This document shows positions 4,680 through 40,536 of a DNA stretch of 64,000 nucleotides, one piece after another. The position numbers were made by a program, and so were the translations under genes. Where the stretch lies: the NCBI RefSeq assembly GCF_025152745.1, contig NZ_CP104041.1, forward strand, positions 496,001 through 560,000. The letters are read 5' to 3'. A model generated the notes under the pieces. That model did not search any database. It was not told where the DNA came from and worked only from the letters and a program-made list of their open reading frames with translations. How positions within the stretch are numbered: position 1 is the stretch's first letter; each line of letters opens with the position of its first letter. Source of the stretch: Rhizobium sp. WSM4643. GTDB taxonomy: Bacteria > Pseudomonadota > Alphaproteobacteria > Rhizobiales > Rhizobiaceae.

Positions 4680-5852
4680 TCACCAATAGGAAGACCAGCT
4701 GCGCGAAAGGCGCGTCAAAGCTTCCATGTAATAATAATCTCCCCAGGAGACGCATTCATCGACACCCTCGCCGCGGCAGCTGTTGAACGGCGATTTCTTC
4801 GAATAGGTGGCGTGCAGCACCAGGCCGTTGGAGGCTGTGGGATCCTTGACCGCATAGTGATCCGCAAGGCTCTTCATCATGCGCCGCGCCAGCGTGCGAT
4901 AGCGTGCTGCCGGTTCCGGCTCGGCGAGATCGGCCATCTCCAGAAGGCCGCAGGCGGCGATCGAGGCCGACGAACTGTCGCGCGGCTCGCCGTCGCCGTC
5001 CGAAAAGACGAGGTCCCAATAGGGCACCATGTCGCCCGGCAGCCGGTTGAGATAGAAGGCGAGCAGCCGGTCGAAGGTTTGGCGATATTCCTCGACCCGC
5101 TCATAGCGATAGGAGAGGGCCATTCCAGCGATTGCCCAGGCCTGTCCGCGCGCCCAGGCGCTGTCGTCTTTGTAACCCTGTTTGGTGGCGCCGCGCACCG
5201 GCGCTCCGGTGACCGGGTCCATATAGAAGGTGTGATAGGTGGAATCATCCGGCCGAACCGAGTTGGCAAGCGTGGTGCGGGCGTGAATGAGCGCGATCTC
5301 GCGGTATTTCGGATCGCCAGTCTCGCGGCTTGCCCAGTAGAGCAGCGGCAGGTTCAAGAGGCAGTCGATGATATAGCGGTATTCTTCCGGCTTGCCTTTA
5401 CGACCCCAGGCCTGGATGAACTGACCGATCGGCTGGAAGCGCTCGATCAGCTGGTCGGCGGCAAGGATCGCGGCTCTGCGGCCATCCTCGTCGCCGACGA
5501 GTTTCCAGGCGGCGATGCAGGAGGGCGAATAGAGAAAGCCCATATCGTGATGATCGGTCTCGATGCGATTGACGATCCGATGCAGGAACGATTGGACCTG
5601 AATTTGTGCCGCATCCCGGAAAGCCGCGTCGCCGCTGTGTTCGAATGCGAGCCACAGCTCGCCGGGCCAGAAGCCGGCGGTCCACTGATCGTTCGCCACG
5701 GGGGGATAGAAATTCTTGATGCTCGAATGGTTCTGCGCGGCGTGGGTGAATTCTGGAAGGTTGCGCCTGACCTGCTCGACGGCGATATCGAGCGCGGCCT
5801 TCACTTCTTCATCGGTAATCGGCTGCGGGGCGACGGATGAAACGGCGTTCAC
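4680..5852 (-). CDS. GH88 unsaturated glucuronyl hydrolase
   Basis: A 390-residue hydrolase of family GH88. This family removes the delta-4,5-unsaturated uronic acid from the non-reducing end of oligosaccharides made by polysaccharide lyases, through hydration of the vinyl ether. Two aspartates match those known in Bacillus sp. GL1 UGL (Asp88 and Asp149): Asp103 in HHDMGFLYSP and Asp163 in IIDCLLNLPLLYWA. The conserved DDSAWARGQAWA stretch spans residues 229-240. There is no signal peptide, so it acts in the cytoplasm. The start is GTG at 5852, three bases after the upstream permease stop. The presence of a heparinase-like protein next door supplies a plausible source of unsaturated product. 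Confidence 0.93.
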   Translation of the reverse strand: MNAVSSVAPQPITDEEVKAALDIAVEQVRRNLPEFTHAAQNHSSIKNFYPPVANDQWTAGFWPGELWLAFEHSGDAAFRDAAQIQVQSFLHRIVNRIETDHHDMGFLYSPSCIAAWKLVGDEDGRRAAILAADQLIERFQPIGQFIQAWGRKGKPEEYRYIIDCLLNLPLLYWASRETGDPKYREIALIHARTTLANSVRPDDSTYHTFYMDPVTGAPVRGATKQGYKDDSAWARGQAWAIAGMALSYRYERVEEYRQTFDRLLAFYLNRLPGDMVPYWDLVFSDGDGEPRDSSSASIAACGLLEMADLAEPEPAARYRTLARRMMKSLADHYAVKDPTASNGLVLHATYSKKSPFNSCRGEGVDECVSWGDYYYMEALTRLSRSWSSYW

Positions 5853-5855
5853 GGC

Positions 5856-6692
5856 TTAACCCTTCAATCCAGTCGAGGCGATGCCCTCGACAAAGAAGCG
5901 CTGGAGAACAAGGAAGACGACGAGGACCGGAATGAGGGCGACGACGGAGGCCGCCATGATGAGCCCGTATTCGGCCGAATATTGCGAGATGAACATGCGC
6001 AGGCCGATCTGGACGGTCTTCAGCTCGGTCTTTGTGAGATAGATCATCGGCCCGAGAAAATCGTTCCAAGTGGTGACGAAGGTGAAGATCGTCAGCGTCG
6101 AGAGCGCGGGTTTCGACAGCGGCAGCATGATGCGCGCCCAGATCTGGTACTCGTTCATGCCGTCGATGCGCGCCGCCTCGCAGAGCTCGGTCGGGATCGA
6201 CATGTAGAACTGCCGCATCAGGAAGACGCCGAAGGCGGTGAATGCCTGCAGGCAGATCAGCGCCAGATGGGTGTTGTTGAGCCCGAATTCACGCATCAGC
6301 AGGAATTGCGGCACCATATAGACCTGCCAGGGCATGGCGATGGTGGCGATGTAGCCGAGGAACAGGGTGTTCTTGTAGGGGAAATTCAGCTTGGCGAAGG
6401 CGTAGGCGGCAAAGCTGGAGGTCAAAAGCTGCAGCAGCGTGACGATGATCGTCAGCTTCGAAGTGTTGTAGATGAACAAGGCGAGCGGGATCTTCGTCCA
6501 GATATCGACGTAGTTATGCCATTGCGGCTCGGACGGTATCCATTCGATCGGGAAGGCGAACACGTCGCGGCTGAGCTTCAAGGATGCCGAAAGCATCCAG
6601 GCAAAGGGCATCAACATGATGAGCGTGACGGCGATGACGATGGCGTAGATCGCGACCGATCTGACGGTCACCTTGCGTCCGGCGATCCTCAT
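5856..6692 (-). CDS. Carbohydrate ABC permease, MalG type
   Basis: A 278-residue inner-membrane permease of the CUT1 family with six predicted membrane helices. The cytoplasmic coupling loop EAARIDGMNEYQIWARIMLPLSKPAL is the EAA motif, and the ending QRFFVEGIASTGLKG is typical of MalG-like subunits. Its ATG overlaps the stop of the MalF-type permease by four bases (ATGA), so the two are translationally coupled. It would form the channel with that permease and the ATPase at 3555-4664. Confidence 0.94.
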   Translation of the reverse strand: MRIAGRKVTVRSVAIYAIVIAVTLIMLMPFAWMLSASLKLSRDVFAFPIEWIPSEPQWHNYVDIWTKIPLALFIYNTSKLTIIVTLLQLLTSSFAAYAFAKLNFPYKNTLFLGYIATIAMPWQVYMVPQFLLMREFGLNNTHLALICLQAFTAFGVFLMRQFYMSIPTELCEAARIDGMNEYQIWARIMLPLSKPALSTLTIFTFVTTWNDFLGPMIYLTKTELKTVQIGLRMFISQYSAEYGLIMAASVVALIPVLVVFLVLQRFFVEGIASTGLKG

Positions 6693-7645
6693 GCCTCGTC
6701 CTCCCTCTGGCGCCGGAACTGGAAGACGGTGACGGCAAGCACGAGGAAGAACAACACCAGCGAAACCATGCTGGAATAGCCGAGATCCCAGGAAATGAAG
6801 GCCTCGTTGTAGATGTGGTAGACGAGGACGAGTGTCGAGGTGCCAGGCCCGCCCTGGGTGATCATGTAGATCTGGTCGAACACCTTGAAGGACTGGATCG
6901 TCAGCATCACGGTGACGAAGAAGGTCGTCGGCCCGAGCTGCGGCACGGTGACATGGATGAACTTCTGCCAGGAATTGGCGCCATCGAGATCGGCGGCCTC
7001 ATAGAGTTCGGAATTGATGCCCTGCAGGCCGGCCAGATAGATGACCATGTAATAGCCCATGTTCTTCCAGATGCCGAAGAGGATCACCGTCACCATCGCC
7101 CAGTGGCGATCGGCCGCCCATCCCGGCATGTTCTTGGGATCGAGGCCGAGCGTATAGAGGATCATGTTCACCGGTCCCATCTCGGGATTGAAGATCATGT
7201 TCCAGACGACGGCGACGGCCACCAGCGAGGCGACATAGGGGAAGAACATCGCCGTGCGGAAGAAGTCGCGCCCTGCGATCTTCTGGTTGAGGAGAACGGC
7301 AAGGCCGAGCGCGCAGATGAGCGTCGCCGGCACGGAGGCGACCGTATAGATCACCGTGTTCCAGAACGCCGCGATGAAGGCCTTGTCCTCGAAGAGCCGC
7401 CAGAAATTATCCAGCCCGGCGAATGTGATCGCATTCGAGCCGTCCCAATGCATGAAGGCGAGCACGAAGGCGAACAGGATCGGGCCGAGCGTGAAGACGG
7501 CAAAGCCGATGAAATTCGGGGCAATGAAGGAATAGGCGACGAGCGCGCTGCGTATCCTGCGCTGGCGCTTGGACAAGACCGCAGCCTTCCGGCGAGAAGT
7601 TGCCGGAGCGCCATCCGTCGCGATGACTGAATTCGATATGGACAC
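6689..7645 (-). CDS. Carbohydrate ABC permease, MalF type
   Basis: First gene of the minus-strand uronide operon. I choose GTG at 7645 (MSISNSVIATDGAP..., 318 residues) because a purine-rich GGAGGAAGAGGAGG lies just upstream; an open frame extends 19 codons further but would run through that site. The protein has a charged N-terminus, six membrane helices and the EAA loop ELYEAADLDGANSWQKFIHVTVP. The final residues overlap the next permease. It is divergent from the heparinase-like gene, with a 161-bp control region between them. Confidence 0.92.
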   Translation of the reverse strand: MSISNSVIATDGAPATSRRKAAVLSKRQRRIRSALVAYSFIAPNFIGFAVFTLGPILFAFVLAFMHWDGSNAITFAGLDNFWRLFEDKAFIAAFWNTVIYTVASVPATLICALGLAVLLNQKIAGRDFFRTAMFFPYVASLVAVAVVWNMIFNPEMGPVNMILYTLGLDPKNMPGWAADRHWAMVTVILFGIWKNMGYYMVIYLAGLQGINSELYEAADLDGANSWQKFIHVTVPQLGPTTFFVTVMLTIQSFKVFDQIYMITQGGPGTSTLVLVYHIYNEAFISWDLGYSSMVSLVLFFLVLAVTVFQFRRQREDEA

Positions 7646-7691
7646 CGATGCCTCCTCTTCCTCCTGCAACCACATAGCACATATCCGGTAT

Positions 7692-7702
7692 TGGTCAAAC
7701 AA
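7692..7702. promoter_or_regulatory. Candidate FadR-type GntR operator
   Basis: TGGTCAAACAA fits TNGTNNNACNA, the consensus reported for FadR-subfamily GntR regulators. It sits in the 161-bp gap between the divergent permease and heparinase-like genes. An 11-mer with six fixed bases occurs by chance fairly often, so support is modest. No GntR gene is adjacent inside the window. Confidence 0.3.
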
Positions 7703-7806
7703 GTTCTAAATAGATCATACGAATTTCATGGAAAGCGCAAAAGACATATGATAGGTGAGCATGCAGACCAAACGCCCATCGATGCTTTTCCGGTACGGGG
7801 AGAGAC

Positions 7807-9603
7807 ATGTTCAGCGAGATTTCAGAGGATCTGCCCGATGTGCTGGGCGATTTCACGCCCGGGGCGGTCTGCGGCGACCGCCTCAGATGGAGCGCGGTGC
7901 CGCAGGCGGTACGGGAACTGGTCGTTGGCGAAGCCGAAGAGACGCTTGCGCGCGCCTGGCCGCTGATTACGGCGTCGGACTACCGGGAGTACACCGAAAC
8001 CGGCAACCGCGCGCGCTTCGAGGAGCTTTATTTCAGACGGCGCCGGATGCTCGACAATCTGGTGCTCGGCGAACTCGTCGAAGGCGGCGCGCGCTTCCTG
8101 CCGAAGATCGTCGACGGCATTTTCCTGATCGCGGAGGAGAGCGGTTGGCAGCTTCCGGCGCATAACGCCTATGAACGAAGCGGCGCACGCTTGCCGCTTC
8201 CCGACAATTCGCAGCCTGTCGTCGATCTCTTCGCCGCCGAAACGGCCGCCCTGCTTGCCACCATCGTCGCATTGCTTCGCAACGAGCTCGACGGCATCAG
8301 CCCCGAGATTACGGCACGCGTCGAGCGCGAGATCGAGATCCGCATCCTCTCGCCCTATCTCGGCCGGCATTTCTGGTGGATGGGCCGCGGTGAGGAGCGG
8401 ATGAACAACTGGACGGCATGGATAACCCAGAACATCCTGTTGACGGTCTTCTCCCTGAAAACGGGCCAGCCCACGCGCCGCGCCGTCGCCAAAAAGGCGC
8501 TCGGCAGCCTCGACGCCTTCCTGAAGGACTATGCCGAGGACGGCGCCTGCGAGGAGGGCGTGCTTTATTACCGCCACGCCGCGCTCTGCCTGCATGGTGC
8601 GTTGATCATCCTGGACGCCGTGGCGCCCGGCCTGTTCGCCGGGGTCTGGCAGCAGCCGAAGATCCGCAACATGGCCGAATATATCGCTCATATGCATGTG
8701 GCCGGCCGCTACTATTTCAACTTCGCGGATTCTTCCGCTGTGGTCGAACCCTGCAGCGCGCGGGAATACCTGTTCGGACAGGCGGTCGGCTCTGAGATGC
8801 TGGCTGAGTTCGCCGCAGCCGACAGGGCTGGGGCCGACAATCCGCACCTGCCCGGGGAATGGAACCTCTGGTATCGCGTGCAGGAACTGCTGGTCGGCCC
8901 GACGCTTCCCGCTGCCGCCAAACCTCATCCCGCATCGCAGCGCGATATCTTCTATCCCGGCATCGGCTTGTTCATCGCCCGCGACGAGCAGTTTTCGCTT
9001 GCCGTCAAGGGCGGCAACAATGGCGAGGGCCACAATCATAACGATGTCGGGAGCGTGACGCTTTACAAGAATGGACGTCCGTTGCTGATCGACGTCGGCG
9101 TCGAGACCTATACCGCAAAGACCTTTTCGGCGCGGCGCTATGAGATATGGACGATGCAGTCAGCGTTCCACAACCTGCCGACATTCGCCGGCGTCATGCA
9201 GTCGGCCGGCGAAGCTTTTGGCGCGCGCGATGTCGAGGTCGGGTTTGACGAAGGGAGCGCGCGCATATCGCTCGATATTTCAGGCGCCTATCCGTCCGAA
9301 GCGCAGCTGCACAGCTATCGGCGCGTCGTTTCGCTGCTGCGCGGCCGCCATGTCGAGATCGTCGACACCTATGACGGCGGCAAGCCGGCGGTCCTGTCGC
9401 TGATGACATGCCTGCCGCCGACCGTCGGCCCAGACAGGATCGACCTAGCCGACCTCGGCAGCATGTTCGTTGAGGGCGCCGGTGAGATGGAAATCGACGA
9501 GATCGTCGTGGAGGACGCCCGGCTGAGATCGGCTTGGCCCGAGAAAATCTACCGGCTGCGTGTGAGGTTTGCCGACAGGCTCCTGAGATTGCGGATCGTC
9601 TAG
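7807..9603 (+). CDS. Heparinase II/III-family protein (putative polysaccharide lyase)
   Basis: A 598-residue protein with the two-part layout of heparinase II/III-like lyases: an N-terminal alpha/alpha toroid (about residues 40-370) followed by a beta-sandwich domain. The C-terminal block GEGHNHNDVGSVTLYKNGRP (His409, His411, Asp413) followed by IDVGVETYTAKTFSARRYE is the family hallmark. Relatives cleave uronic-acid polysaccharides by beta-elimination. No signal peptide is present, so it would act on imported oligomers in the cytoplasm, feeding the GH88 hydrolase. GGGGAGAGAC precedes the ATG. The substrate (glycosaminoglycan-like, alginate-like or plant acidic glycan) cannot be fixed from sequence. 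The stop codon is part of a repeat element. Confidence 0.88.
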   Translation: MFSEISEDLPDVLGDFTPGAVCGDRLRWSAVPQAVRELVVGEAEETLARAWPLITASDYREYTETGNRARFEELYFRRRRMLDNLVLGELVEGGARFLPKIVDGIFLIAEESGWQLPAHNAYERSGARLPLPDNSQPVVDLFAAETAALLATIVALLRNELDGISPEITARVEREIEIRILSPYLGRHFWWMGRGEERMNNWTAWITQNILLTVFSLKTGQPTRRAVAKKALGSLDAFLKDYAEDGACEEGVLYYRHAALCLHGALIILDAVAPGLFAGVWQQPKIRNMAEYIAHMHVAGRYYFNFADSSAVVEPCSAREYLFGQAVGSEMLAEFAAADRAGADNPHLPGEWNLWYRVQELLVGPTLPAAAKPHPASQRDIFYPGIGLFIARDEQFSLAVKGGNNGEGHNHNDVGSVTLYKNGRPLLIDVGVETYTAKTFSARRYEIWTMQSAFHNLPTFAGVMQSAGEAFGARDVEVGFDEGSARISLDISGAYPSEAQLHSYRRVVSLLRGRHVEIVDTYDGGKPAVLSLMTCLPPTVGPDRIDLADLGSMFVEGAGEMEIDEIVVEDARLRSAWPEKIYRLRVRFADRLLRLRIV

Positions 9604-30926: not shown

Positions 30927-32210
30927 TTACTTGGCGGCGAGCGCCACGTTGACCTTGTCGACGTCGGCACTCATTGCCTTGAAGGTCTCGTCGAGGGAAA
31001 GCTCGCCGACGATCAACTGGCTCATCCTCTGGACGATGAGCTGATAGATGGCGGAGGATCCCTTGAGACGTTCCAGGTCCCGGGCTGCCTGCGGCACGCT
31101 GTTGCGGCTTGCGAGGAAGACGGCCATCGCCTCCTTGGCATTCTTGCTCTCGAGCTTGTATTGCGGATCCTTGATGTCGGCGCCCGTCAGGATGACGTAG
31201 TTTTCAGCGATTTCACGCTGGACCTTTTCAGAGCCGAGGAACTCGATGAAGGCGGCCACGGCCTCCGGAGACTTAGTGCGCTTGAAGCCGACGATCGCAG
31301 TTCCGCCAGGCATCGCATAGCAACCGGCATCGCCGCACGGCGCGCCGATCGCCGTCCAGTCGAATGCGTCGCCGATCTTCTTCTGGAACGGATTGACCAT
31401 CCAGTTGCCGGCGAGATAGGTCACGACGTTGCCGTTGACGAACTCGTCGCCCATGTTCTTGTACTGGGTTCCGCCGGCAGCCCCCCACATTTCCTTGGGG
31501 AATGAGCCGTCCTTCGTCCAGCCGTAGAGATCCGTGACATAACGCTTGGCGGCATCGTCGGGGAAGAAGAACTTGCCGTCCTTGACGTAGTTCGAGCCGT
31601 AGGAGAATGCCGCGCCGGAAAAGCGGTGGCCCGAGCGATCCATCGTGAAGGGTATCTGAGCGCCGGTCGCCTTGGCGACGCGCGCGGAGGCTTCGACGAT
31701 ATCCTTCAGCGTGGCGGTGGGCTTCGGAAGCGGTTCGCCAGCCTGTTCGAACAGCGTCTTGTTGACGAAGGGTAGGTTGAAGGTTTGCGACGCGATATAG
31801 CCGTTGATCGACTGCGGGTCGTTGACGCCGGGGAAGCGAAGCGTGTTCAGGCTGTCGCCGTGCAGCTTGGCGAAACCGTCCGGGTCCTTCATGTAAGGAC
31901 GCATGTCGAGGTAATAGGGCGCCAGCTGCCAGTCGGTGATCTTGGCAATGTCAGGACCTTCGCCGACGGCAAGCTGTACCGGCAACTGCTTGGCGACCGC
32001 ATCATAGCCCGACGAGACGAAATTGACCTTGACGTCGGGATGCGCCGTCTCGAATTCTTTGCTGAGCGCTTCCATCCGCTCGACGTAAGCCTGGTCGTCG
32101 TCGGTGAACAGAAAGGTGATCGTCTTGGTTTCCGCCATGGCCGCGCCGGCCCATGCGAAAGAAACGGTAGCCAGCGCCAGTGCGAGGGCTCCTGAGAGAT
32201 AGGTTTTCAT
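30927..32210 (-). CDS. Sugar ABC solute-binding protein (family 1), pectin locus
   Basis: A 427-residue periplasmic binding protein. The start at 32210 (MKTYLSGALALALATVSFAW) is preferred over an ATG two codons earlier because GGGAGG then sits six bases upstream. The signal peptide ends at GAAMA. The mature region ETKTITFLFTDDDQAYVERMEALSKEFE and the DIAKITDWQLAPYYLDM block are CUT1-like. It is divergent from the GH105/GH28/permease operon, which lacks a binding protein of its own, so it is its partner. The ligand is likely an oligogalacturonide or rhamnogalacturonan fragment. Confidence 0.92.
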   Translation of the reverse strand: MKTYLSGALALALATVSFAWAGAAMAETKTITFLFTDDDQAYVERMEALSKEFETAHPDVKVNFVSSGYDAVAKQLPVQLAVGEGPDIAKITDWQLAPYYLDMRPYMKDPDGFAKLHGDSLNTLRFPGVNDPQSINGYIASQTFNLPFVNKTLFEQAGEPLPKPTATLKDIVEASARVAKATGAQIPFTMDRSGHRFSGAAFSYGSNYVKDGKFFFPDDAAKRYVTDLYGWTKDGSFPKEMWGAAGGTQYKNMGDEFVNGNVVTYLAGNWMVNPFQKKIGDAFDWTAIGAPCGDAGCYAMPGGTAIVGFKRTKSPEAVAAFIEFLGSEKVQREIAENYVILTGADIKDPQYKLESKNAKEAMAVFLASRNSVPQAARDLERLKGSSAIYQLIVQRMSQLIVGELSLDETFKAMSADVDKVNVALAAK

Positions 32211-32222
32211 TTTCATCCTCCC

Positions 32223-32238
32223 ATGAAAACATTTTCAT
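32223..32238. promoter_or_regulatory. Operator palindrome, binding-protein side
   Basis: ATGAAAACATTTTCAT is a palindrome with one mismatched central pair, positioned just ahead of the ribosome site of the binding-protein gene. Its twin is at 32364-32379. Confidence 0.75.
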
Positions 32239-32363: not shown

Positions 32364-32379
32364 ATGAAAATATTTTCAT
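32364..32379. promoter_or_regulatory. Operator palindrome, catabolic-operon side
   Basis: ATGAAAATATTTTCAT is a perfect 16-bp palindrome 22 bp upstream of the GTG start of the 840-aa gene. It differs from the first copy at one base. The centres are 141 bp apart, close to a whole number of helical turns. Confidence 0.8.
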
Positions 32380-32401: not shown

Positions 32402-34924
32402 GTGAAAACGGAATCCAGCAAACAGCCGGGCGAGATGACGCCGGCATACAGCGTGGCCGAGGGCCAGACGATCACGGCATGGGCCGTTTCCGGCCTCATC
32501 GCCAGCTATTTTCCCGGCGAGCCCGCGCCGGCCGAAGACCGCGTGAACTATCGTTTCATCAACGGTTTCGTCGATGTCGGCGACTTGCCCTGCCGCAAGG
32601 CTTTCTGGTCGACCATGGTCGGGCGGCCGCTGCTGCCCGACACAGCCTGGCCGACCGAAAGCCTCAATCTTCCCGGCTCGAACCGCCGCGTCGAGTTCAC
32701 CGGTTTCTGGCACGTGCCGACGCATCTCAGGCGATGGCTGAAGGGCACGTTCAGGACGGAGACCGCGCGAACGCTCAATCTCAGGCTGAAGACCTGCGGC
32801 GGCGTTCGCATATGGGTCAACGGACAGGAGGAAGTACGCTTCGAACCCTTCAAGCGCAACACCGAGAGCGCAACCGACATAAGCCTGCCGCTTAAAGCCG
32901 GCGACAACCAGATTCTCGTCCATACCGAAGACCTCGCCGAGCGCGACACGACATGGTTCTTCGAACTCGAGATGCTGGACGAGGAGCCGCTCTGCGTGCT
33001 GCTGCCCGTATCGCTTGATCAGGATGAGGTCCGCGAGTTGGAAGCCCTTGCGCGCGGAGTGCGCCCGGCCCGCGACGTCTTCGTCAATCAGCCGCTGGAG
33101 ATCATCTTCGGCACTGCGCCCGAACGCGATCTGCCGGTAGAGATCAAGGTCGTCGGCCATGGGCACGAACGGCCCGTTCTCGCGCACTCCCGATTGACGC
33201 TCAAGGCTCATCAGAGCAGCCTCACTGCCGACGACGTCTGCGGCATTGCGGACGGTTATCACGGCGTGCATATGACGATCGGCAGCGGCACGGGTTCGGT
33301 TACGCGCGTCATCGATGCCGCCTTCATGAGCAGCATTTCGCCGGTGCCATCAGAGACGTCGCTCGCCGCCCGCAAGCGGCAGGCGCTGGAATACAGCGCC
33401 CGCTTCGGCGCCAATCGCGTCGGGCGCCTGATCGCCATGATGGAAACCGGTCACCACGACCAGGAAAGCTTCGACCGCATCATCGACGCGACGCTCGCCT
33501 CCATCGATGCGCGGGAGGATTGCTCGGATTTCATCATGGTGCCGCTGTTGTGGCTGCTCGGCGCCTATGCCGACAGGATGCCCGATGCTGTGGTCGATCG
33601 CATCCGGCATTCCGTCCGTTCCTATCGTTACTGGGTCGACGAGCCGGGCAACGACGCGATGTGGTTCTGGAGCGAGAACCATGTGCTCTGCTTTCATACG
33701 AGCCAATTGCTGGCGGGACTTCTCCTGCCCGACGAGGTGTTTTCGGCCTCGGGCAGGACGGGGCGGCAGCAAGCGGAAGTCGCCGGTGAGCGGCTCGGCC
33801 GCTGGTTCGATAGCGTCGAAGCCCATGGGTTGGCGGAGTGGAACTCGGCCGCCTATTACCCGATCGACTTCATCGGTCTGCTGGCGCTGGAGCGCTGGGC
33901 CGAGACGGCGATGTCAGCGCGCGCCCGCGCCCAGATCGATCTCATCTTCCGGATGATTGCCCTTCATACGCTCGCAGGCGTTCCGGCCGGATCGCAGGGC
34001 CGCGCTTACGACAAGGAGTTGCGCGCCGGCCCGCTGACCGAGCTTGCGCCCTTCGCCCAGGTCGCTTTTGGAACCGGCTGGCTGAACAATGGTGTCGCGG
34101 CATTGACGATGTTCTGCGCCGGCGGCTACGAGCCGCCGGCCGAGCTGGCCGAGCTTGCGGCGCTCACCCCGTCAAGAAGCGTCGAAGCGCGTTACAGCCA
34201 GGGGCTCGAGAGCGGAAGACTCGTGCTGTTCAAGAACGAGGCGGCGCAGCTTTCGACGGTCGTCGATCACAAGACCGGCCAGAAGGGGCACCAGCAGCAT
34301 GTCCTCGACATCAGGTTGGCCGGCCATCCGATGGCGAGGCTGTGGGTCAACCATCCCGGTGAGGACGACCCCTGGGGCAATCAACGGCCGTCCTATTGGG
34401 CCGGCAACGGCATCCTGCCGCGCGTTGCCCAGCATCGCGACGTCGCTCTGCTGATCGAAGACACAGGCGACGCACGGCACGCATCGACGCACGCCTATAT
34501 CGGCCGCGACGGGCTAGACGACCTCATTATCGAAGACAAATGGCTGATTGTCCGATCAGGCAGAGGATTTTCCGCCCTCTGGGCGTCGAACGGCCTGGAG
34601 CTGATCACCGATGGCCCGACGGCCGGCCGCGAGGTGCGCTCCTACGGGCCGCTGTGCGGCTGGGCTGGTATCGTCGGATGCGGTAACGACGCCGCCTTCA
34701 AGACGTTCATCGAACGCCTGGGCCAGACGACGGTTTCCTTCGATCCCGGGCTTCGGCGTCTCTCCCTGACACCGCCCGGCGGCTCGGCGATCGACCTCTT
34801 CTATGCCGACGGTCTTTCGATCGGCGGCCAGGCGAGGCCCTTCACCCACGATCAGCCGCACCCGATCCTCACCCACGACAGTGCAGCTTCCGGCGCCGGC
34901 ACTGACGGGCCGTTCTACTCCTGA
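32402..34924 (+). CDS. Uncharacterised 840-aa protein, putative oligosaccharide-active enzyme
   Basis: I do not recognise the family. The start is GTG at 32402, preceded by GGAGGAGG. Predicted layout: residues about 1-190 are beta-rich and end in a jelly-roll-like block (LRLKTCGGVRIWVNGQ, then LPLKAGDNQILVHTEDLAE); about 190-310 are a second beta region; 310-590 are helical, toroid-like, with the motif WFWSENHVLCFHTSQLLAG (Ser424-Glu425-Asn426-His427) and WNSAAYYPIDF (from Trp480); 590-840 are beta-rich. Helical toroid plus beta-sandwich resembles heparinase-like lyases and some hydrolases. No signal peptide is seen. It leads the operon with GH105 and GH28 genes, so a role on imported pectic oligomers is inferred. 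Confidence 0.8.
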   Translation: MKTESSKQPGEMTPAYSVAEGQTITAWAVSGLIASYFPGEPAPAEDRVNYRFINGFVDVGDLPCRKAFWSTMVGRPLLPDTAWPTESLNLPGSNRRVEFTGFWHVPTHLRRWLKGTFRTETARTLNLRLKTCGGVRIWVNGQEEVRFEPFKRNTESATDISLPLKAGDNQILVHTEDLAERDTTWFFELEMLDEEPLCVLLPVSLDQDEVRELEALARGVRPARDVFVNQPLEIIFGTAPERDLPVEIKVVGHGHERPVLAHSRLTLKAHQSSLTADDVCGIADGYHGVHMTIGSGTGSVTRVIDAAFMSSISPVPSETSLAARKRQALEYSARFGANRVGRLIAMMETGHHDQESFDRIIDATLASIDAREDCSDFIMVPLLWLLGAYADRMPDAVVDRIRHSVRSYRYWVDEPGNDAMWFWSENHVLCFHTSQLLAGLLLPDEVFSASGRTGRQQAEVAGERLGRWFDSVEAHGLAEWNSAAYYPIDFIGLLALERWAETAMSARARAQIDLIFRMIALHTLAGVPAGSQGRAYDKELRAGPLTELAPFAQVAFGTGWLNNGVAALTMFCAGGYEPPAELAELAALTPSRSVEARYSQGLESGRLVLFKNEAAQLSTVVDHKTGQKGHQQHVLDIRLAGHPMARLWVNHPGEDDPWGNQRPSYWAGNGILPRVAQHRDVALLIEDTGDARHASTHAYIGRDGLDDLIIEDKWLIVRSGRGFSALWASNGLELITDGPTAGREVRSYGPLCGWAGIVGCGNDAAFKTFIERLGQTTVSFDPGLRRLSLTPPGGSAIDLFYADGLSIGGQARPFTHDQPHPILTHDSAASGAGTDGPFYS

Positions 34925-34940
34925 AACATAGGTCTCCAGC

Positions 34941-36035
34941 ATGAACACAACATCTGTCGATAACGCCGCCCTCCTGACGACGATCGATCGCGTGGCAACG
35001 GCGTTCAGCCGGCTCAGAGGCATCAAGGAAGGTCTCGTGACGGGAAATTCCGCGTCCGGAATCCAGTTCGACGAATGGGACTGGGAAGTCGGCGTCGGTC
35101 TCTACGGCTTCCTGCGCCGCGCTATTTCCACCAATGATCAGAAAGCGCTGCAGGAACTCGTCGCCTGGTATGCCGGCCAGATCGAACGCGGCCTGCCGCC
35201 GCGCCAGATCAACAGCACGGCGCCGATGCTGCCGCTTGCGATCCTCGTTCAGCATGTCGACCGTCCCGATTTTCGCGCTCTCGTCGAGGACTGGGCCGAA
35301 TGGCTCGTCAAGGAGCTGCCGAAGACCGAGGACGGCGGCTTTCAGCACGTCGTCAAGGAGCGTCTCAACGACGGCGAATTGTGGGACGATACGTTGTTCA
35401 TGGCCTGCCTGTTTCTCGCCCGGGCCGGCGTGCTCTGCCAGCGCAGCGAATGGATCGACGAGGCCGTCTATCAATTCGTGATCCACACCCGCTACCTCTC
35501 GGATCCGGTCAGCGGGCTCTGGTATCATGGCTGGACCTTCAACGGCCGGCACAATTTCGCCAATGCCTTCTGGGCGCGCGGCAATGCCTGGATCACCGTC
35601 GCCATCCCCGAGCTCTTCGATCTCGTTCCGACGCTCGGCGAGAAGGACCGGCGTTTCCTGTCGAACGTTCTCGTCAGCCAGGTGCGCTCCTTGAAAGCAT
35701 ACCAGCGGCCGGACGGGATGTTCACGACGCTTCTGGACGATCCGTCCTCGCCGCTCGAAACCTCAGCCACGGCAGGCATTGCCTATGGCATATTGCGCGC
35801 CATCGATGCCGGCATTCTCGACAAAGACGACAGGGCTCATGCGGAGCGCGCGCTTGCGGCGGTGCTGGCGCAGATCGACGATGAAGGTGTCGTCCACGGC
35901 GTCTCGGACGGCACGCCGATGGGCCATGACCTCGATTTCTACAGGCGCATCCCCAACGTGCCGACGCCTTATGGCCAGGCGCTGACCATGCTGCTCCTGA
36001 CGGAAGTCTTTCTCGAGAACGGCGAGCGCCAATGA
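34941..36035 (+). CDS. GH105 unsaturated rhamnogalacturonyl hydrolase
   Basis: A 364-residue protein of the GH105 family (YteR/YesR-like). These enzymes remove unsaturated galacturonic acid from the ends of rhamnogalacturonan-I or pectin oligomers left by lyases. The conserved LWDDTLFMACLFLARAG block contains Asp149-Asp150, matching the catalytic Asp143 region of Bacillus YteR. WYHGWTFNGRHNFANAFWARGNAW is the second hallmark. It has no signal peptide, so it is cytoplasmic. The gene sits 16 bp after the 840-aa gene and overlaps the GH28 gene by four bases (ATGA). Confidence 0.93.
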   Translation: MNTTSVDNAALLTTIDRVATAFSRLRGIKEGLVTGNSASGIQFDEWDWEVGVGLYGFLRRAISTNDQKALQELVAWYAGQIERGLPPRQINSTAPMLPLAILVQHVDRPDFRALVEDWAEWLVKELPKTEDGGFQHVVKERLNDGELWDDTLFMACLFLARAGVLCQRSEWIDEAVYQFVIHTRYLSDPVSGLWYHGWTFNGRHNFANAFWARGNAWITVAIPELFDLVPTLGEKDRRFLSNVLVSQVRSLKAYQRPDGMFTTLLDDPSSPLETSATAGIAYGILRAIDAGILDKDDRAHAERALAAVLAQIDDEGVVHGVSDGTPMGHDLDFYRRIPNVPTPYGQALTMLLLTEVFLENGERQ

Positions 36036-37396
36036 GCCCCGTGTCACGTGTCGCGATCGAGCCGGCGGAGGGCGACGATACGGTCCGCCTGCAGGCGGCC
36101 ATCGACGGCCTGTCGGCTTCGGGCGGCGGACGCGTGGAGCTCAAGGCCGGCATCCATGTCTGCCGCGGGCTCCAGCTCAGATCCGGCGTCGACCTTCATC
36201 TGGCCGCCGGCGCGATCCTGCGTCCCGTTTCGGACTACGAGGCCTATGCGCATACGAGTGTTTCGGTGATCGCCGAAAAATCGGACCGCGGCATGATCGT
36301 CGCCAAGGATGCACGGCGGATCAGTCTGACGGGGGCGGGGCGCATCGAAGCCGGTTGTGACAGCTTCATTGTGGGAGACGACGAGACGGTGGGAACCTTC
36401 ATCCCGGCCGAATTTCGTCCACGTGTCGTGGTGTTCGAAGGTTGCGACGAGGTCGAGATCAGCTCCGTCCATATTTGCCGCTCGCCGATGTGGACGCTGC
36501 ATTTCGTCAACTGCACCGATGTCACAGTCAGGGATGTGACCATCGACAACGACCGCCGCCTTCCCAATACCGACGGCATCGTGCTGGATGCCTGCCGCGG
36601 CGCCGTGATCGAGGACTGCCGGATATCGACGGCCGACGACGGCATATGCCTGAAGACGAGTATCGGCCCCGATCGTGTCGCCATCGGACGATGCGAAAAC
36701 ATTCTTGTCCGCCGCTGCTCCGTTCGGAGCCTCAGCTGTGCGCTGAAGATCGGCACGGAAACGCATGGCGACGTCACCAATGTCGTGTTCGAGGATTGCA
36801 ACGTTTCATCCTCCAACAGGGCGCTCGGCATATTTTCCCGCGACGGCGGCCGGATATCGAATGTGAGGTTTTCGAGAATTGCGGTGGAGTGCCGCGAGAC
36901 CCCCGATGGTTTCTGGGGCTCGGGGGAGGCGCTGACCGTCAATGTCGTCGACCGTGTCGCGGAGCGCACGGCAGGCGCCATCGAAAATCTCATCGTCGAG
37001 GACATAACCGGCCGGATGGAGGGGGCGATCACGATCATTTCGACCTCGTCGGCCGGTATCAGGAACGCATCGCTTGCGCGCATCGCCATCGATCAGCAGC
37101 CTGGGCAACTCGGTACGGCGCGGTCCTACGACCTGCGTCCGACGAACGCGGACCTTTCCCCGAAAGCCGATGGCGGCGGCCGTGCGAATGCCTGGACCCG
37201 CGGGTCCGACGGTCGGGTGATCGGTCTTGAGCACTATCCGGGAGGAATGCCGGCCGTCTACGTGGCTGATGTCGCCGGGATAGTGATGAATGAGGTGCGG
37301 ATCACAAGACCGACACCGCTGCCGCAAGGCTGGAACAAAAACAACGCCGTCTTCGAAACGGCGGCACCTGATGGGAGTGGGGCATGGCAGAACTGA
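36032..37396 (+). CDS. GH28 polygalacturonase/rhamnogalacturonan hydrolase
   Basis: A 454-residue right-handed beta-helix enzyme of family GH28. The family motifs are clear: NTDG with Asp181, TADDGICLK with Asp202 and Asp203, and GTETHGD with His245. The fourth (RIK) motif appears altered as NRALGIFSRDGG, a pattern seen in exo-acting or rhamnogalacturonan-type members. No signal peptide precedes MSPVSRVAIEPAEGDDT, so it should act in the cytoplasm as an oligomer hydrolase rather than attack cell walls outside. It overlaps the GH105 gene by four bases and the ATPase gene by 13. Confidence 0.92.
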   Translation: MSPVSRVAIEPAEGDDTVRLQAAIDGLSASGGGRVELKAGIHVCRGLQLRSGVDLHLAAGAILRPVSDYEAYAHTSVSVIAEKSDRGMIVAKDARRISLTGAGRIEAGCDSFIVGDDETVGTFIPAEFRPRVVVFEGCDEVEISSVHICRSPMWTLHFVNCTDVTVRDVTIDNDRRLPNTDGIVLDACRGAVIEDCRISTADDGICLKTSIGPDRVAIGRCENILVRRCSVRSLSCALKIGTETHGDVTNVVFEDCNVSSSNRALGIFSRDGGRISNVRFSRIAVECRETPDGFWGSGEALTVNVVDRVAERTAGAIENLIVEDITGRMEGAITIISTSSAGIRNASLARIAIDQQPGQLGTARSYDLRPTNADLSPKADGGGRANAWTRGSDGRVIGLEHYPGGMPAVYVADVAGIVMNEVRITRPTPLPQGWNKNNAVFETAAPDGSGAWQN

Positions 37397-38490
37397 AACT
37401 TTCCAACGTCAACAAATCGTATGGCTCGGTCAAAGTCCTGCATGACGTCGAACTCGATATCAAGGACGGCGAGTTCGTCGTCTTCGTCGGTCCGTCGGGA
37501 TGCGGCAAGTCGACCCTGCTGCGTGTCATCGCCGGCCTCGAAGAGGTCACGGAGGGCGCAATCGCGATCGGGGGGCGCGACGTCAGCGCGCTCTCGCCTG
37601 CGGAGCGCAAGATCGCAATGGTCTTCCAGTCCTACGCGCTCTATCCGCATATGAGCGTTCGCAAGAACCTCGCTTTCGGCCTGGAGAACCTGAAGTTCAA
37701 GCGCGCCGAGATCGAGGCGCGGATTGCCGAAGCCGCCAGGATGCTGGCGATCGAACCTTATCTGGACCGGCGCCCGAAGCAGCTTTCGGGCGGCCAGCGC
37801 CAACGCGTGGCAATCGGCCGGGCCATTGTGCGCGAACCGGACATTTTCCTCTTCGATGAGCCGCTGTCGAATCTCGACGCCGCCTTGCGCGTCCAGACCC
37901 GCGCCGAGATCACCAAGCTGCACCGCGAGATCAAGACGACGATGATCTACGTCACGCATGACCAGGTCGAGGCGATGACGATGGCCGACAAGATCGTCGT
38001 GCTGCGGGCTGGGCGGGTCGAGCAGGTCGGCGCGCCGCTGGACCTGTTCGATGGCCCCCGCAATCTCTTCGTCGCCGGCTTCCTCGGCTCGCCGCGCATG
38101 AACATCATCAAGGGCAAGATATCAGGCATCAGCGAAAGCGGCGTCACCATCGATGTCGGCAATGGCGGCAGCATCGTCAGCGATGTCGATCTCGCCGGCA
38201 TTGCGGTCGGACAGGCCGTTCTCGCCGGCATCCGGCCCGCGCATTTTTCCCGTTCCAGCGAGCAGGGCCTGCCGTTCATCGTCCAGTATCATGAGGGCCT
38301 CGGGACCGAGACCTATGTCTACGGCAACCTTGCAGGTCAGGACGAGCAGATGATCATTCATGAGGCCGGCCATTTCGCGCCGGCCCCTGGTGATCACATC
38401 CTGATCGATGCCGCCCCGGGGCGGGTTCATCTGTTCGATCCCGAAAGCGGCCTGGCTTTTGCCCGGCGGCCCGGACAGGGGAGGCGCTGA
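37384..38490 (+). CDS. ABC ATPase, UgpC/MsmK/MalK type, pectin locus
   Basis: A 368-residue CUT1 ATPase. Walker A GPSGCGKST is at residues 36-44, the signature is LSGGQRQRVAIGRA, Walker B is IFLFDEPLSNLDA and the switch His lies in THDQVEAMT. The TOBE-type C-terminal domain contains AGIRPAHFS. Its start lies inside the end of the GH28 gene (13-bp overlap). It pairs with the two permeases immediately downstream. Confidence 0.95.
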   Translation: MAELKLSNVNKSYGSVKVLHDVELDIKDGEFVVFVGPSGCGKSTLLRVIAGLEEVTEGAIAIGGRDVSALSPAERKIAMVFQSYALYPHMSVRKNLAFGLENLKFKRAEIEARIAEAARMLAIEPYLDRRPKQLSGGQRQRVAIGRAIVREPDIFLFDEPLSNLDAALRVQTRAEITKLHREIKTTMIYVTHDQVEAMTMADKIVVLRAGRVEQVGAPLDLFDGPRNLFVAGFLGSPRMNIIKGKISGISESGVTIDVGNGGSIVSDVDLAGIAVGQAVLAGIRPAHFSRSSEQGLPFIVQYHEGLGTETYVYGNLAGQDEQMIIHEAGHFAPAPGDHILIDAAPGRVHLFDPESGLAFARRPGQGRR

Positions 38491-38492
38491 AC

Positions 38493-39488
38493 ATGGCGGC
38501 GCTCAAGGCAGGTGCATTGCTGACCCAGACAGGGGAAACGGCGATGAGAGTGGTCGAAGCCCCGATAAATCTGATCGAGCGCATCTTCGGCCGCAAGCGT
38601 ATGCCATGGCTGTTCCTGGCCCCGAACCTCGTACTGTTTGCTATCTTCACGTTCCTTCCGATCGCGATCGCGATCGGTTACGCCTTTACCGGCGGCACAA
38701 ACCTTTTCGTGTCGGAGCGTCCCTTCGTCGGCCTGGACAATTTCCGCACGCTGCTTTCCTGCGGCAATTATCTGCAGCCGGGAACCTGTCAGGAATCGCT
38801 GTTCTGGACGGCCGTGTGGAACACGCTCTGGTTCGTAGCCTTCAATGTCGTCGCCACATTGCTCGTGGCGCTGATCACGGCGCTGATCCTCAATCGGGCG
38901 ATCGTCGCGCGCGGCTTCTTCAGGGCGATGTTCTTCTATCCCGTCTTGCTGTCTCCCGTCGTCATCGGTCTCATCTGGAAATGGTTCCTCGATCGTAACG
39001 GGCTCCTGAACGCCTTCTTCCAGATGATCGGCGTTCCCCCTGAAATCTTCCTGCTTGATGTCGGCTGGTCGCGCTTCTTCGTCGTCGCGGTATCGGTCTG
39101 GTTTCACATGGGTTTTTATACCCTGATCCTGCTTGCCGGCCTCCAGGCTATCCCGAAGGAGCTCTACGAGGCTGCCTCCATCGATGCCGCTTCGCCGCGC
39201 CGCACGCTGTTCAGAATCACGCTTCCGTTGCTCGCCCCGAACCTCTTGGTCGTGTTCATTCTTTTGATGATCAAATCCGTCCAGATCTTCGACGAGGCCT
39301 GGGTCTTGACCAATGGCGGAGGCCCCGGCACGGCCAACAGCTTCATCGTCCAATATATCTACCAGATGGCTTTCGGCAGCGATCTTCGCCTCTTCGGACT
39401 GGCCTCCGCCGCATCGGTTCTCATGGGGCTGGTGCTTCTGGTTCTTACCCTCATACAGCTGCGCATCGGCAAGCGAATGGAGTCTTGA
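38493..39488 (+). CDS. Carbohydrate ABC permease, MalF type, pectin locus
   Basis: A 331-residue permease with GGGGAGGCG ahead of its ATG, two bases after the ATPase stop. After a cytoplasmic N-terminus, helices begin at WLFLAPNLVLFAIFTFLPIAIAI. The EAA loop is ELYEAASIDAASPRRTLFRITLPLL. An in-frame Met at residue 18 is an alternative start. It forms the pore with the next gene product and receives ligand from the divergently encoded binding protein. Confidence 0.93.
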   Translation: MAALKAGALLTQTGETAMRVVEAPINLIERIFGRKRMPWLFLAPNLVLFAIFTFLPIAIAIGYAFTGGTNLFVSERPFVGLDNFRTLLSCGNYLQPGTCQESLFWTAVWNTLWFVAFNVVATLLVALITALILNRAIVARGFFRAMFFYPVLLSPVVIGLIWKWFLDRNGLLNAFFQMIGVPPEIFLLDVGWSRFFVVAVSVWFHMGFYTLILLAGLQAIPKELYEAASIDAASPRRTLFRITLPLLAPNLLVVFILLMIKSVQIFDEAWVLTNGGGPGTANSFIVQYIYQMAFGSDLRLFGLASAASVLMGLVLLVLTLIQLRIGKRMES

Positions 39489-39489
39489 G

Positions 39490-40536
39490 ATGAACCAGAT
39501 CAGCTTTTTCACGCGCACACGCCGAGCCGGACGCATTGATATAACCGACATATTGTCATGGGTCTGGCTGGTCGGCGGAACCTTCGTGGTGTTGCTTCCG
39601 GTCCTCTGGGCGGGCCTCTCCTCGCTGAAGCCGGCGGCTGAGATCACCCGGTTTCCGCCGACGCTGCTTCCCCGGGCCGCCGTCGAACAGACCGTGCCCG
39701 GCTTCGACAAGCCGCTCAGCCTCTGGCAGGTTACCGTCGACGGCCAGATGCGCGAAATGGCCATGGTTCGCCGCATCGGCCTCAAGGCCCAGATGGTCGA
39801 TCCGGCAAATCCGGGATCACCGGTCAGCGTCGACGTCAAGGGGCTGACGCCGGTGCAGAAGCTGACGGTCGCCACGCAGAATTACACCGATCCGCTGACC
39901 CGATTCAACTTCCTGACCTTTCTGAAGAATTCAGTGTTCGTCACCTTCGTCGCAACGCTGCTGACGCTGATCGTCAACGCCATGGCGGCTTTCGCCCTGT
40001 CGAAATACAAATTTCCCGGTGATACGACGGTCTTCGTCATCATCATTTCGACGCTGATGATCCCGCTCGCCGTCGTCATGGTGCCGGCCTATCTCGTCAT
40101 CGTCGGGGTCGGGCTTGCCGACAACCTCTGGGGCGTCATCCTGCCGACGGTCGCCTCTCCGACCGCCGTTTTCCTGCTGCGGCAATATATGCTGACCATA
40201 CCCGACGAGCTGATAGAGGCGGCGCGCGTCGACGCGGCGAGCGAATTCTGCATCTTCTGGCGCATCATTCTGCCGCTGACGGCGCCGGCGCTGGCGGTGC
40301 TGGCGATCTTTTCGGTGCTCTGGCGCTGGAACGATTTCCTCTGGCCGCTGATCGTCCTCAACAGCCGTGAGAATTTCACGCTGCAGGTCGGCCTGAACGC
40401 ATTCCAGGGGGAGTTCTCGGTGCAGTGGCACTATATCCTGGCGATGACGTTCCTCAGCCTGCTGCCCGTCACCGTCGTCTTCCTGTTTCTGCAGAAGTAC
40501 ATCACCACGGGCATCGCCGGAACAGGGATGAAGTAA
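39490..40536 (+). CDS. Carbohydrate ABC permease, MalG type, pectin locus
   Basis: A 348-residue permease. The start is ATG 39490 (MNQISFFTRTRRAGRID), one base after the preceding stop; earlier in-frame codons lie inside that gene. About 90 residues of periplasmic sequence separate helices 1 and 2 (from LKPAAEITRFPP to NYTDPLTRFNF), longer than in the MalG-type subunits at 5856 and 23664. The EAA loop is IEAARVDAASEFCIFWRIILPLTAP and the end is TGIAGTGMK. It closes the pectin operon. Confidence 0.93.
   Translation: MNQISFFTRTRRAGRIDITDILSWVWLVGGTFVVLLPVLWAGLSSLKPAAEITRFPPTLLPRAAVEQTVPGFDKPLSLWQVTVDGQMREMAMVRRIGLKAQMVDPANPGSPVSVDVKGLTPVQKLTVATQNYTDPLTRFNFLTFLKNSVFVTFVATLLTLIVNAMAAFALSKYKFPGDTTVFVIIISTLMIPLAVVMVPAYLVIVGVGLADNLWGVILPTVASPTAVFLLRQYMLTIPDELIEAARVDAASEFCIFWRIILPLTAPALAVLAIFSVLWRWNDFLWPLIVLNSRENFTLQVGLNAFQGEFSVQWHYILAMTFLSLLPVTVVFLFLQKYITTGIAGTGMK

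Follow-up and report, generated by a model that had tools for sequence, protein, structure and literature searches.

What does the first protein of a putative pectic-oligosaccharide operon of a root-associated Rhizobium do, when its sequence matches no known family? The question is raised by a stretch of 64,000 nucleotides of Rhizobium sp. WSM4643 (contig NZ_CP104041.1, positions 496,001 to 560,000; below, "the window" is this whole stretch, and coordinates refer to it), where a preliminary description had noted an 840-aa protein of unrecognised family leading an operon with GH105 and GH28 glycoside hydrolases and a CUT1 importer. We consider it likely that this protein, here called protein X, is a cytosolic lyase of the heparinase-like structural class, a family of its own by sequence, which would cleave galacturonate oligosaccharides by β-elimination so that GH105 can remove the unsaturated ends. 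From the family, predicted fold, conservation, neighbourhood and operator, all established by computation, we infer the catalysis, residue roles, substrate and direction of the pathway.

The open reading frame (ORF) of X at 32402-34924 on the plus strand starts with GTG, encodes 840 aa and has no internal stop; starting at an in-frame TTG 18 bases further upstream would lengthen it to 846 aa. A copy 94.5% identical, on plasmid pRL12 of R. johnstonii 3841, is annotated with the same start as a 'hypothetical protein', and the operon order there is the same as in the window. Residues 424-439 read SENHVLCFHTSQLLAG and residues 480-490 WNSAAYYPIDF; both motifs, the operon composition and the lack of a signal peptide (none is apparent by eye) were thus described correctly. 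Conservation was counted over a 91-row alignment, which omits 11 loci listed as duplicates (L001, L005, L088-L091, L097-L101); L005 and L088 are one record, both omitted, and L089-L091, though close copies, are not proven duplicates. The features of X are the following.

32402..34924, plus strand: protein X, proposed cytosolic oligouronide lyase of an unnamed family, 840 aa (sequence, alignment, predicted models)
32456..33010, plus strand: residues 19-203, β domain resembling PA14 and GH2 sugar-binding domains
33011..33325, plus strand: residues 204-308, second domain, all-β (secondary structure of the AlphaFold model)
33362..34171, plus strand: residues 321-590, helical α/α toroid (AlphaFold models, Foldseek)
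33671..33682, plus strand: S424-E425-N426-H427, with N426 the proposed carboxylate neutraliser and H427 the proposed base (conservation over 91 rows)
33836..33856, plus strand: E479-W-N-S-A-A-Y485, with Y485 the proposed acid (conservation over 91 rows)
34181..34879, plus strand: residues 594-826, β-sandwich (AlphaFold models, Foldseek)
34286..34300, plus strand: G629-H630-Q631-Q632-H633, proposed counterpart of the sandwich His motif, H413 in Alg17c and H424 in heparinase III (conservation, motif comparison)
34490..34492, plus strand: H697, the sole sandwich His identical in all rows (91/91)

AlphaFold gave two β domains followed by an α/α toroid and a β-sandwich, and two models agree on the β, toroid and β arrangement read earlier from the letters. 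Full-length Foldseek searches were led by GH2 β-galactosidases and glucuronidases (TM score about 0.12, root-mean-square deviation about 30 Å), rows that are driven by the N-terminal β domains and were rejected; a second model was therefore made without these domains. Searched against the PDB, this toroid and sandwich model yielded 22 significant matches, every one a polysaccharide lyase (PL) of families PL8, PL15, PL17, PL35 or PL39; the list contains lyases throughout down to E 5e-4, aligned over both toroid and sandwich (380-440 residues). In the predicted models, X thus has the toroid plus antiparallel β-sandwich that defines the heparinase-like structural class. A toroid glycoside hydrolase or phosphorylase (GH105-, GH154- or GH65-like) is very improbable, since such fold matches span the toroid only whereas the lyases span toroid and sandwich, and since the invariant Asn/His/Tyr with E425 and E479 is, in our judgement, not a paired-acid site. 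Of the earlier suggestion of a lyase or hydrolase, the first half is favoured and the second is less likely. The loops with N426, Y485 and residues 655-667 are the worst-modelled part of both AlphaFold models (predicted local distance difference test score < 50), so that active-site geometry is unusable as evidence. In the viral library BFVD, the sole significant match to the toroid and sandwich model is the unnamed 809-aa protein A0A5Q2W4E8 (E 6.8e-5).

The motifs of X were at first thought to differ from those of heparinase-like lyases, a view that the comparison does not support. In aligned PDB sequences, N426-H427, E479...Y485 and GH630 occur in the same order as the catalytic Asn-His, Tyr and His of PL17 and PL12, and at a roughly similar spacing. 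Alg17c (PL17, 4nei) has I-H-N201-H202, E-G-P-Y-Y258 and G-H413-G-H-F-D, numbered after the printed sequences of its H202L and Y258A mutants; heparinase III (PL12; 4fnv, 4mmh) has G-N240-H, E-L-S-P-I-Y294 and F-H424-A-Q, with numbering inferred from a 24-residue chain offset; the counterparts in X are S-E-N426-H427, E479-W-N-S-A-A-Y485 and G-H630-Q-Q-H. The Tyr-to-His distance in X, 145 residues, lies within the 130-166 of known lyases (155 in Alg17c, 130 in heparinase III). From Asn to Tyr X has 59 residues, against 57 in Alg17c, 54 in heparinase III and 53-57 in PL12, PL15, PL17, PL35 and PL39 in the table of PMC12088678, which also gives the catalytic roles of Asn (as neutraliser), Tyr and His. 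In the same table the exo-heparinase 6lja has adjacent Asn336-His337 and then Tyr390, like X, whereas the PL35 GAGases (8khw, 8khv, 9o3q) have Asn-Asn where X has Asn-His (PMC12088678). The PL8 and PL15 lyases (2x03, 1n7n; 3a0o of Agrobacterium, 6lja) take Foldseek ranks 1 and 5 for X; in PL8, unlike the proposed sandwich His of X, the His lies in the toroid near Tyr (His233, Tyr242). For neither Alg17c nor heparinase III was sequence homology to X found, nor do the PL8 and PL15 lyases and the PL35 GAGases give a sequence match. The substrates differ as well, being alginate for Alg17c, heparan sulfate for heparinase III, glycosaminoglycans for the GAGases and probably galacturonate for X, and X exceeds Alg17c by about 310 N-terminal residues with β domains.

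Conservation agrees with these assignments in the toroid. Invariant in 91/91 rows, one of them archaeal, are E425, N426, H427, E479, S482, Y485, R534, Y536, Q631, W666 and H697; S424 and N481 follow with 90/91 each, W480 with 87/91 and H633 with 82/91. The SENH sequence, singled out at the outset as distinctive, is hence kept among homologues, and was identical in 33/33 diverse rows of an earlier alignment. The NH / E..Y / GH pattern occurs in X at 426/485/630 and 426/485/642; it arose in 57 of 20,000 whole-sequence shuffles, and in 2 of 20,000 using positions kept in at least 81 of the 91 rows, in controls designed after the fact. H651 is His in 87/91 rows and Asn in four (L058, L060, L061, L070), the first three of which also lack the usual solute-binding protein gene. 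Cysteines C64, C132 and C374 are kept in all rows covering them, though X seems cytosolic; C132 has no counterpart in the archaeal homologue (L087).

In galacturonate the C4 oxygen is axial, anti to H5. For heparinase II, PMC12088678 describes His202 as base and Tyr as acid on iduronate. By analogy, this stereochemistry and this precedent would favour H427 as the base and Tyr as the acid. The probable mode of action of X is that of a heparinase-class lyase, its most likely substrates being galacturonate oligosaccharides within the cytosol. The importer would carry pectic oligosaccharides into the cell, where X would bind them, perhaps with the assistance of its N-terminal β domains; N426 (with H427) would neutralise the carboxylate of the uronate, the C5 proton would go to a histidine (H427 or the sandwich residue H630), and Y485 would protonate the leaving oxygen, so that β-elimination cuts the chain. 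GH105 next door would remove the new 4,5-unsaturated galacturonyl end while GH28 would trim saturated ends, and the keto-deoxy-uronate released would pass to KduI and KduD, with genes elsewhere in the genome.

Is X a known lyase by sequence? Pfam gave no match to X at E <= 0.1 nor at E <= 1, and NCBIfam (June 2026) held no matching model. Among PDB sequences nothing significant was found for X alone (armadillo repeat proteins and a cysteine synthase gave three matches at E 0.031-0.13, which were taken as chance), and a profile of 33 family members, 30-82% identical to X, had no match up to E 10. Models PF05426, PF07940 and PF16889 (PL17, PL12, PL15, PL21) matched none of these 33 members, and the solved PL35 members 8khv, 8khw and 9o3q were unmatched by sequence or profile of X, whereas the same library does match the other heparinase-like protein of the window. 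PL22 oligogalacturonate lyase, a β-propeller family, cleaves pectic oligosaccharides in the cytosol beside GH105-type steps. Its likeness to X is one of presumed role only, as its model PF14583 does not match X. Judged by these sequence tests, X is not a member of PL12, PL15, PL17, PL21, PL22 or PL35, in agreement with the unrecognised family first proposed. That X already stands in CAZy as a numbered or non-classified lyase family is possible, if on balance somewhat improbable: the comparison rests on Pfam, NCBIfam and PDB, and Pfam and PDB lag behind CAZy, but besides the missing NCBIfam model, the 40 listed of 199 plasmid records with tblastn homologues of X are 'hypothetical protein' or without annotation, and no report on the protein was found in open-licence literature (passages of PMC11103875 and PMC6421345 held no relevant content).

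The best plasmid match, 97.6% identical, is from Rhizobium sp. WSM1274, and the next rows are R. leguminosarum and close species. GTDB genome contigs contain at least 155 relatives, the best 80 of which form the loci counted below, and X was found in 6 of 299 Pseudomonadota genomes. The 33-row alignment includes Phyllobacterium, Pseudosulfitobacter and Gemmobacter, two genomes that share the phylum but not the class, and Subdoligranulum (Bacillota). The archaeal relative, from Haladaptatus (L087, 11812-13797), is shorter and lacks the N-terminal β domains; its match to X is confined to the toroid and part of the sandwich. It retains ENH, E..S..Y, GRTY and THA, and is set among sugar isomerase and Gfo/Idh/MocA oxidoreductase genes. 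An ORF at 12581-15103 of L077 was discarded, as it looks like a wrong-frame ORF.

Downstream of X, on the same strand and with small gaps or overlaps, lie genes for two glycoside hydrolases and for the ATPase (UgpC-type) and both permeases of the importer; upstream, the gene for its solute-binding protein is transcribed divergently.

34941..36035, plus strand: GH105 (PF07470), NCBIfam NF051900 (Pfam, NCBIfam)
36032..37396, plus strand: GH28, NCBIfam NF051861, polygalacturonase PglB (Pfam, NCBIfam)
37384..38490, plus strand: importer ATPase, UgpC/MalK-type (Pfam, NCBIfam)
38493..39488, plus strand: importer permease 1 (Pfam, NCBIfam)
39490..40536, plus strand: importer permease 2, start chosen by us (the longest ORF begins at 39313)
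30927..32216, minus strand: solute-binding protein of the importer, divergent

Within up to 10 kb of X, a GH105 homologue was found in 77 of the 80 loci, GH28 in 73, the solute-binding protein in 70, UgpC in 76 and each permease in 70 (the UgpC and permease tallies include some remote paralogues), which bears out a steady association with GH105. Five loci around Roseibium, Chelativorans and one Rhizobium have neither GH28 nor the CUT1 importer, and two of them (L077, L078) carry oligopeptide-type transporter genes near X. The GH105 of the window passes the NF051900 cut-off, as do those of all four further loci tested (L073, L098, L099 and, in Bacillota, L083); it adjoins X in the window and the first three and is 5.8 kb away in L083. 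Between X and GH105 of L083 is a gene for an MGH1-like glycoside hydrolase (PF22422, 15602-18331). Across the 299 genomes, GH88/105 was present in 26, including all six with X (hypergeometric 2.4e-7, kinship uncorrected), and of the 14 genomes within the family the same four carry X and GH105. The KduI model matched in all six X genomes and in 69 of 299 overall. GH105 requires unsaturated uronyl ends. The genome of the window has no match for PL22, PL1, PL10 and PL11 models, and PL22 is present in only one of the six X genomes (G222); the PL2 search found no match even in controls and is hence uninformative. X is the best local candidate for generating the ends used by GH105.

The solved dermatan sulfate epimerase 6hzn is matched by the fold of X, although not in the sequence search with the X-family profile, and X might accordingly be a uronyl C5-epimerase with lyase fold and the same residues that does not cut the chain. 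We give this the slightest probability only, as the steady presence of GH105, together with KduI/KduD in a second clade described below, implies an unsaturated uronyl product, and as epimerised galacturonate is not known to us from pectin.

With a lyase preferred, the linkage has to be considered. Rhamnogalacturonan fragments, named as substrate in the preliminary description, are possible, but nothing found favours them over galacturonan oligosaccharides. X could be a lyase of rhamnogalacturonan I (Rha-GalA repeats) or of the rhamnose-capped glucuronate of arabinogalactan, with GH105 freeing the unsaturated sugar from rhamnose or galactose. The GH105 family serves rhamnogalacturonan and arabinogalactan pathways too, its subfamily bears the NCBIfam label 'beta-galactosidase BglB', and the GH28 of the window scores on rhamnogalacturonidase models, but far below their cut-offs. 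Yet this GH28 scores 710 bits on the PglB polygalacturonase model, above its cut-off of 600, and no rhamnose genes were seen in the operon of the window or of strain 3841; we therefore regard the other linkages as unlikely. According to the review PMC6683767, PglB (Atu4560), the GH28 of Agrobacterium C58, takes part in polygalacturonic acid degradation. The X counterpart in this strain is, at a guess, one of Atu4561-4563, which are not named in the open-licence literature searched. NCBIfam gives the BglB name to the GH105 at 34941-36035 itself; the name may be misleading, family and context suggesting an unsaturated uronyl hydrolase.

Several observations weigh against a galacturonate lyase. 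Global superposition of X on the matched lyases is loose, and hhalign profile-profile comparison of the X family with heparinase-like proteins found no homology, and thus none is claimed; the comparison set was 19 proteins from later harvests (L156 dropped), picked by the motif patterns of known lyases and so not an unbiased sample. (A PF07940 harvest, mostly a 580-aa alphaproteobacterial family without usable motifs, was left unused.) H630 is His in 81/91 rows, Tyr in nine and Phe in one, so that of the proposed catalytic set only the toroid residues hold in every row of the alignment; because H630 varies, the full pattern is absent at positions kept in 90-91 rows, where the NH / E..Y part alone arose in 3 of 20,000 shuffles. 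GH105 is missing from L067 (where the contig ends), L077 and L079, is not among the annotated genes of the archaeal locus, and neither it nor kduI is near the X paralogues of this genome and of two other Rhizobium genomes. Finally, the unsaturated oligosaccharides might be imported ready-made instead of being made by X.

A second clade is formed by eight kdu-type and Rhizobium-paralogue rows, which cluster together with support 1.000; kduI is in the same locus as X in 5 of these 8 members, three of which have an annotated kduD. Since H630 is replaced by Tyr in nine rows (GYQE), this clade may use another base or another substrate. The paralogue of this genome, 34% identical to X (L097, 10675-13197, contig C1), adjoins genes for a LacI regulator, a solute-binding protein and a UgpC-type ATPase, with GH105 and kduI not near.

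A plausible, although tentative, proposal is that X represents a new PL family bringing the heparinase/alginate-lyase fold into pectin catabolism. It would act by anti-elimination, with the His of the N-H pair as base and Y485 as acid, carry sugar-binding-like N-terminal domains, form with one GH105 subfamily a two-gene module that extends through Pseudomonadota and Bacillota (a distant relative occurs in an archaeon), and replace the missing PL22 in Rhizobium. If so, X would fill the lyase step in intracellular use of pectin fragments by rhizobia and agrobacteria (in the Agrobacterium operon GH28 and GH105 are named and the first gene is still 'hypothetical'), and would extend to pectin a fold known from enzymes of glycosaminoglycans and alginate. 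N426, H427, Y485 and the operator are directly testable targets.

The 185-base gap between X and the divergent solute-binding protein gene contains two palindromes.

32223..32238: palindrome ATGAAAACATTTTCAT, proposed operator, solute-binding protein side
32364..32379: palindrome ATGAAAATATTTTCAT, proposed operator, X side

With at most two mismatches they are the only ones in the 64 kb (0.08 expected). The core, with at most one mismatch and within 320 bases upstream of the match, is present in 73 of 80 loci, twice in 65 of them, against just 10 occurrences in the remaining 1.72 Mb of the same loci; L073, L077, L078, L079, L081 and L082 lack it, as does L070, where the contig begins with the gene. 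We propose from the sequence that the palindromes, with motif ATGAAAAnnTTTTCAT, are operators common to the importer and the enzymes. Their form resembles KdgR- and LacI-type sites. A downstream ROK gene is found in 30 of 80 loci and an AraC gene in 21; as these are few, the regulator may be encoded elsewhere. An extension of the regulon to kduI was rejected, as the best site in the kduI stretch of contig 4 carries two mismatches and gives no support.

The window also contains a second lyase-type locus (4680-9603), with a GH88/105-like gene (4680-5852, minus strand), two importer permeases (5856-7702, minus strand) and a Hepar_II_III_C protein (7807-9603, plus strand) that strongly matches the solved 'heparinase' 8r73 (E 5.6e-89) and PL35 more weakly.
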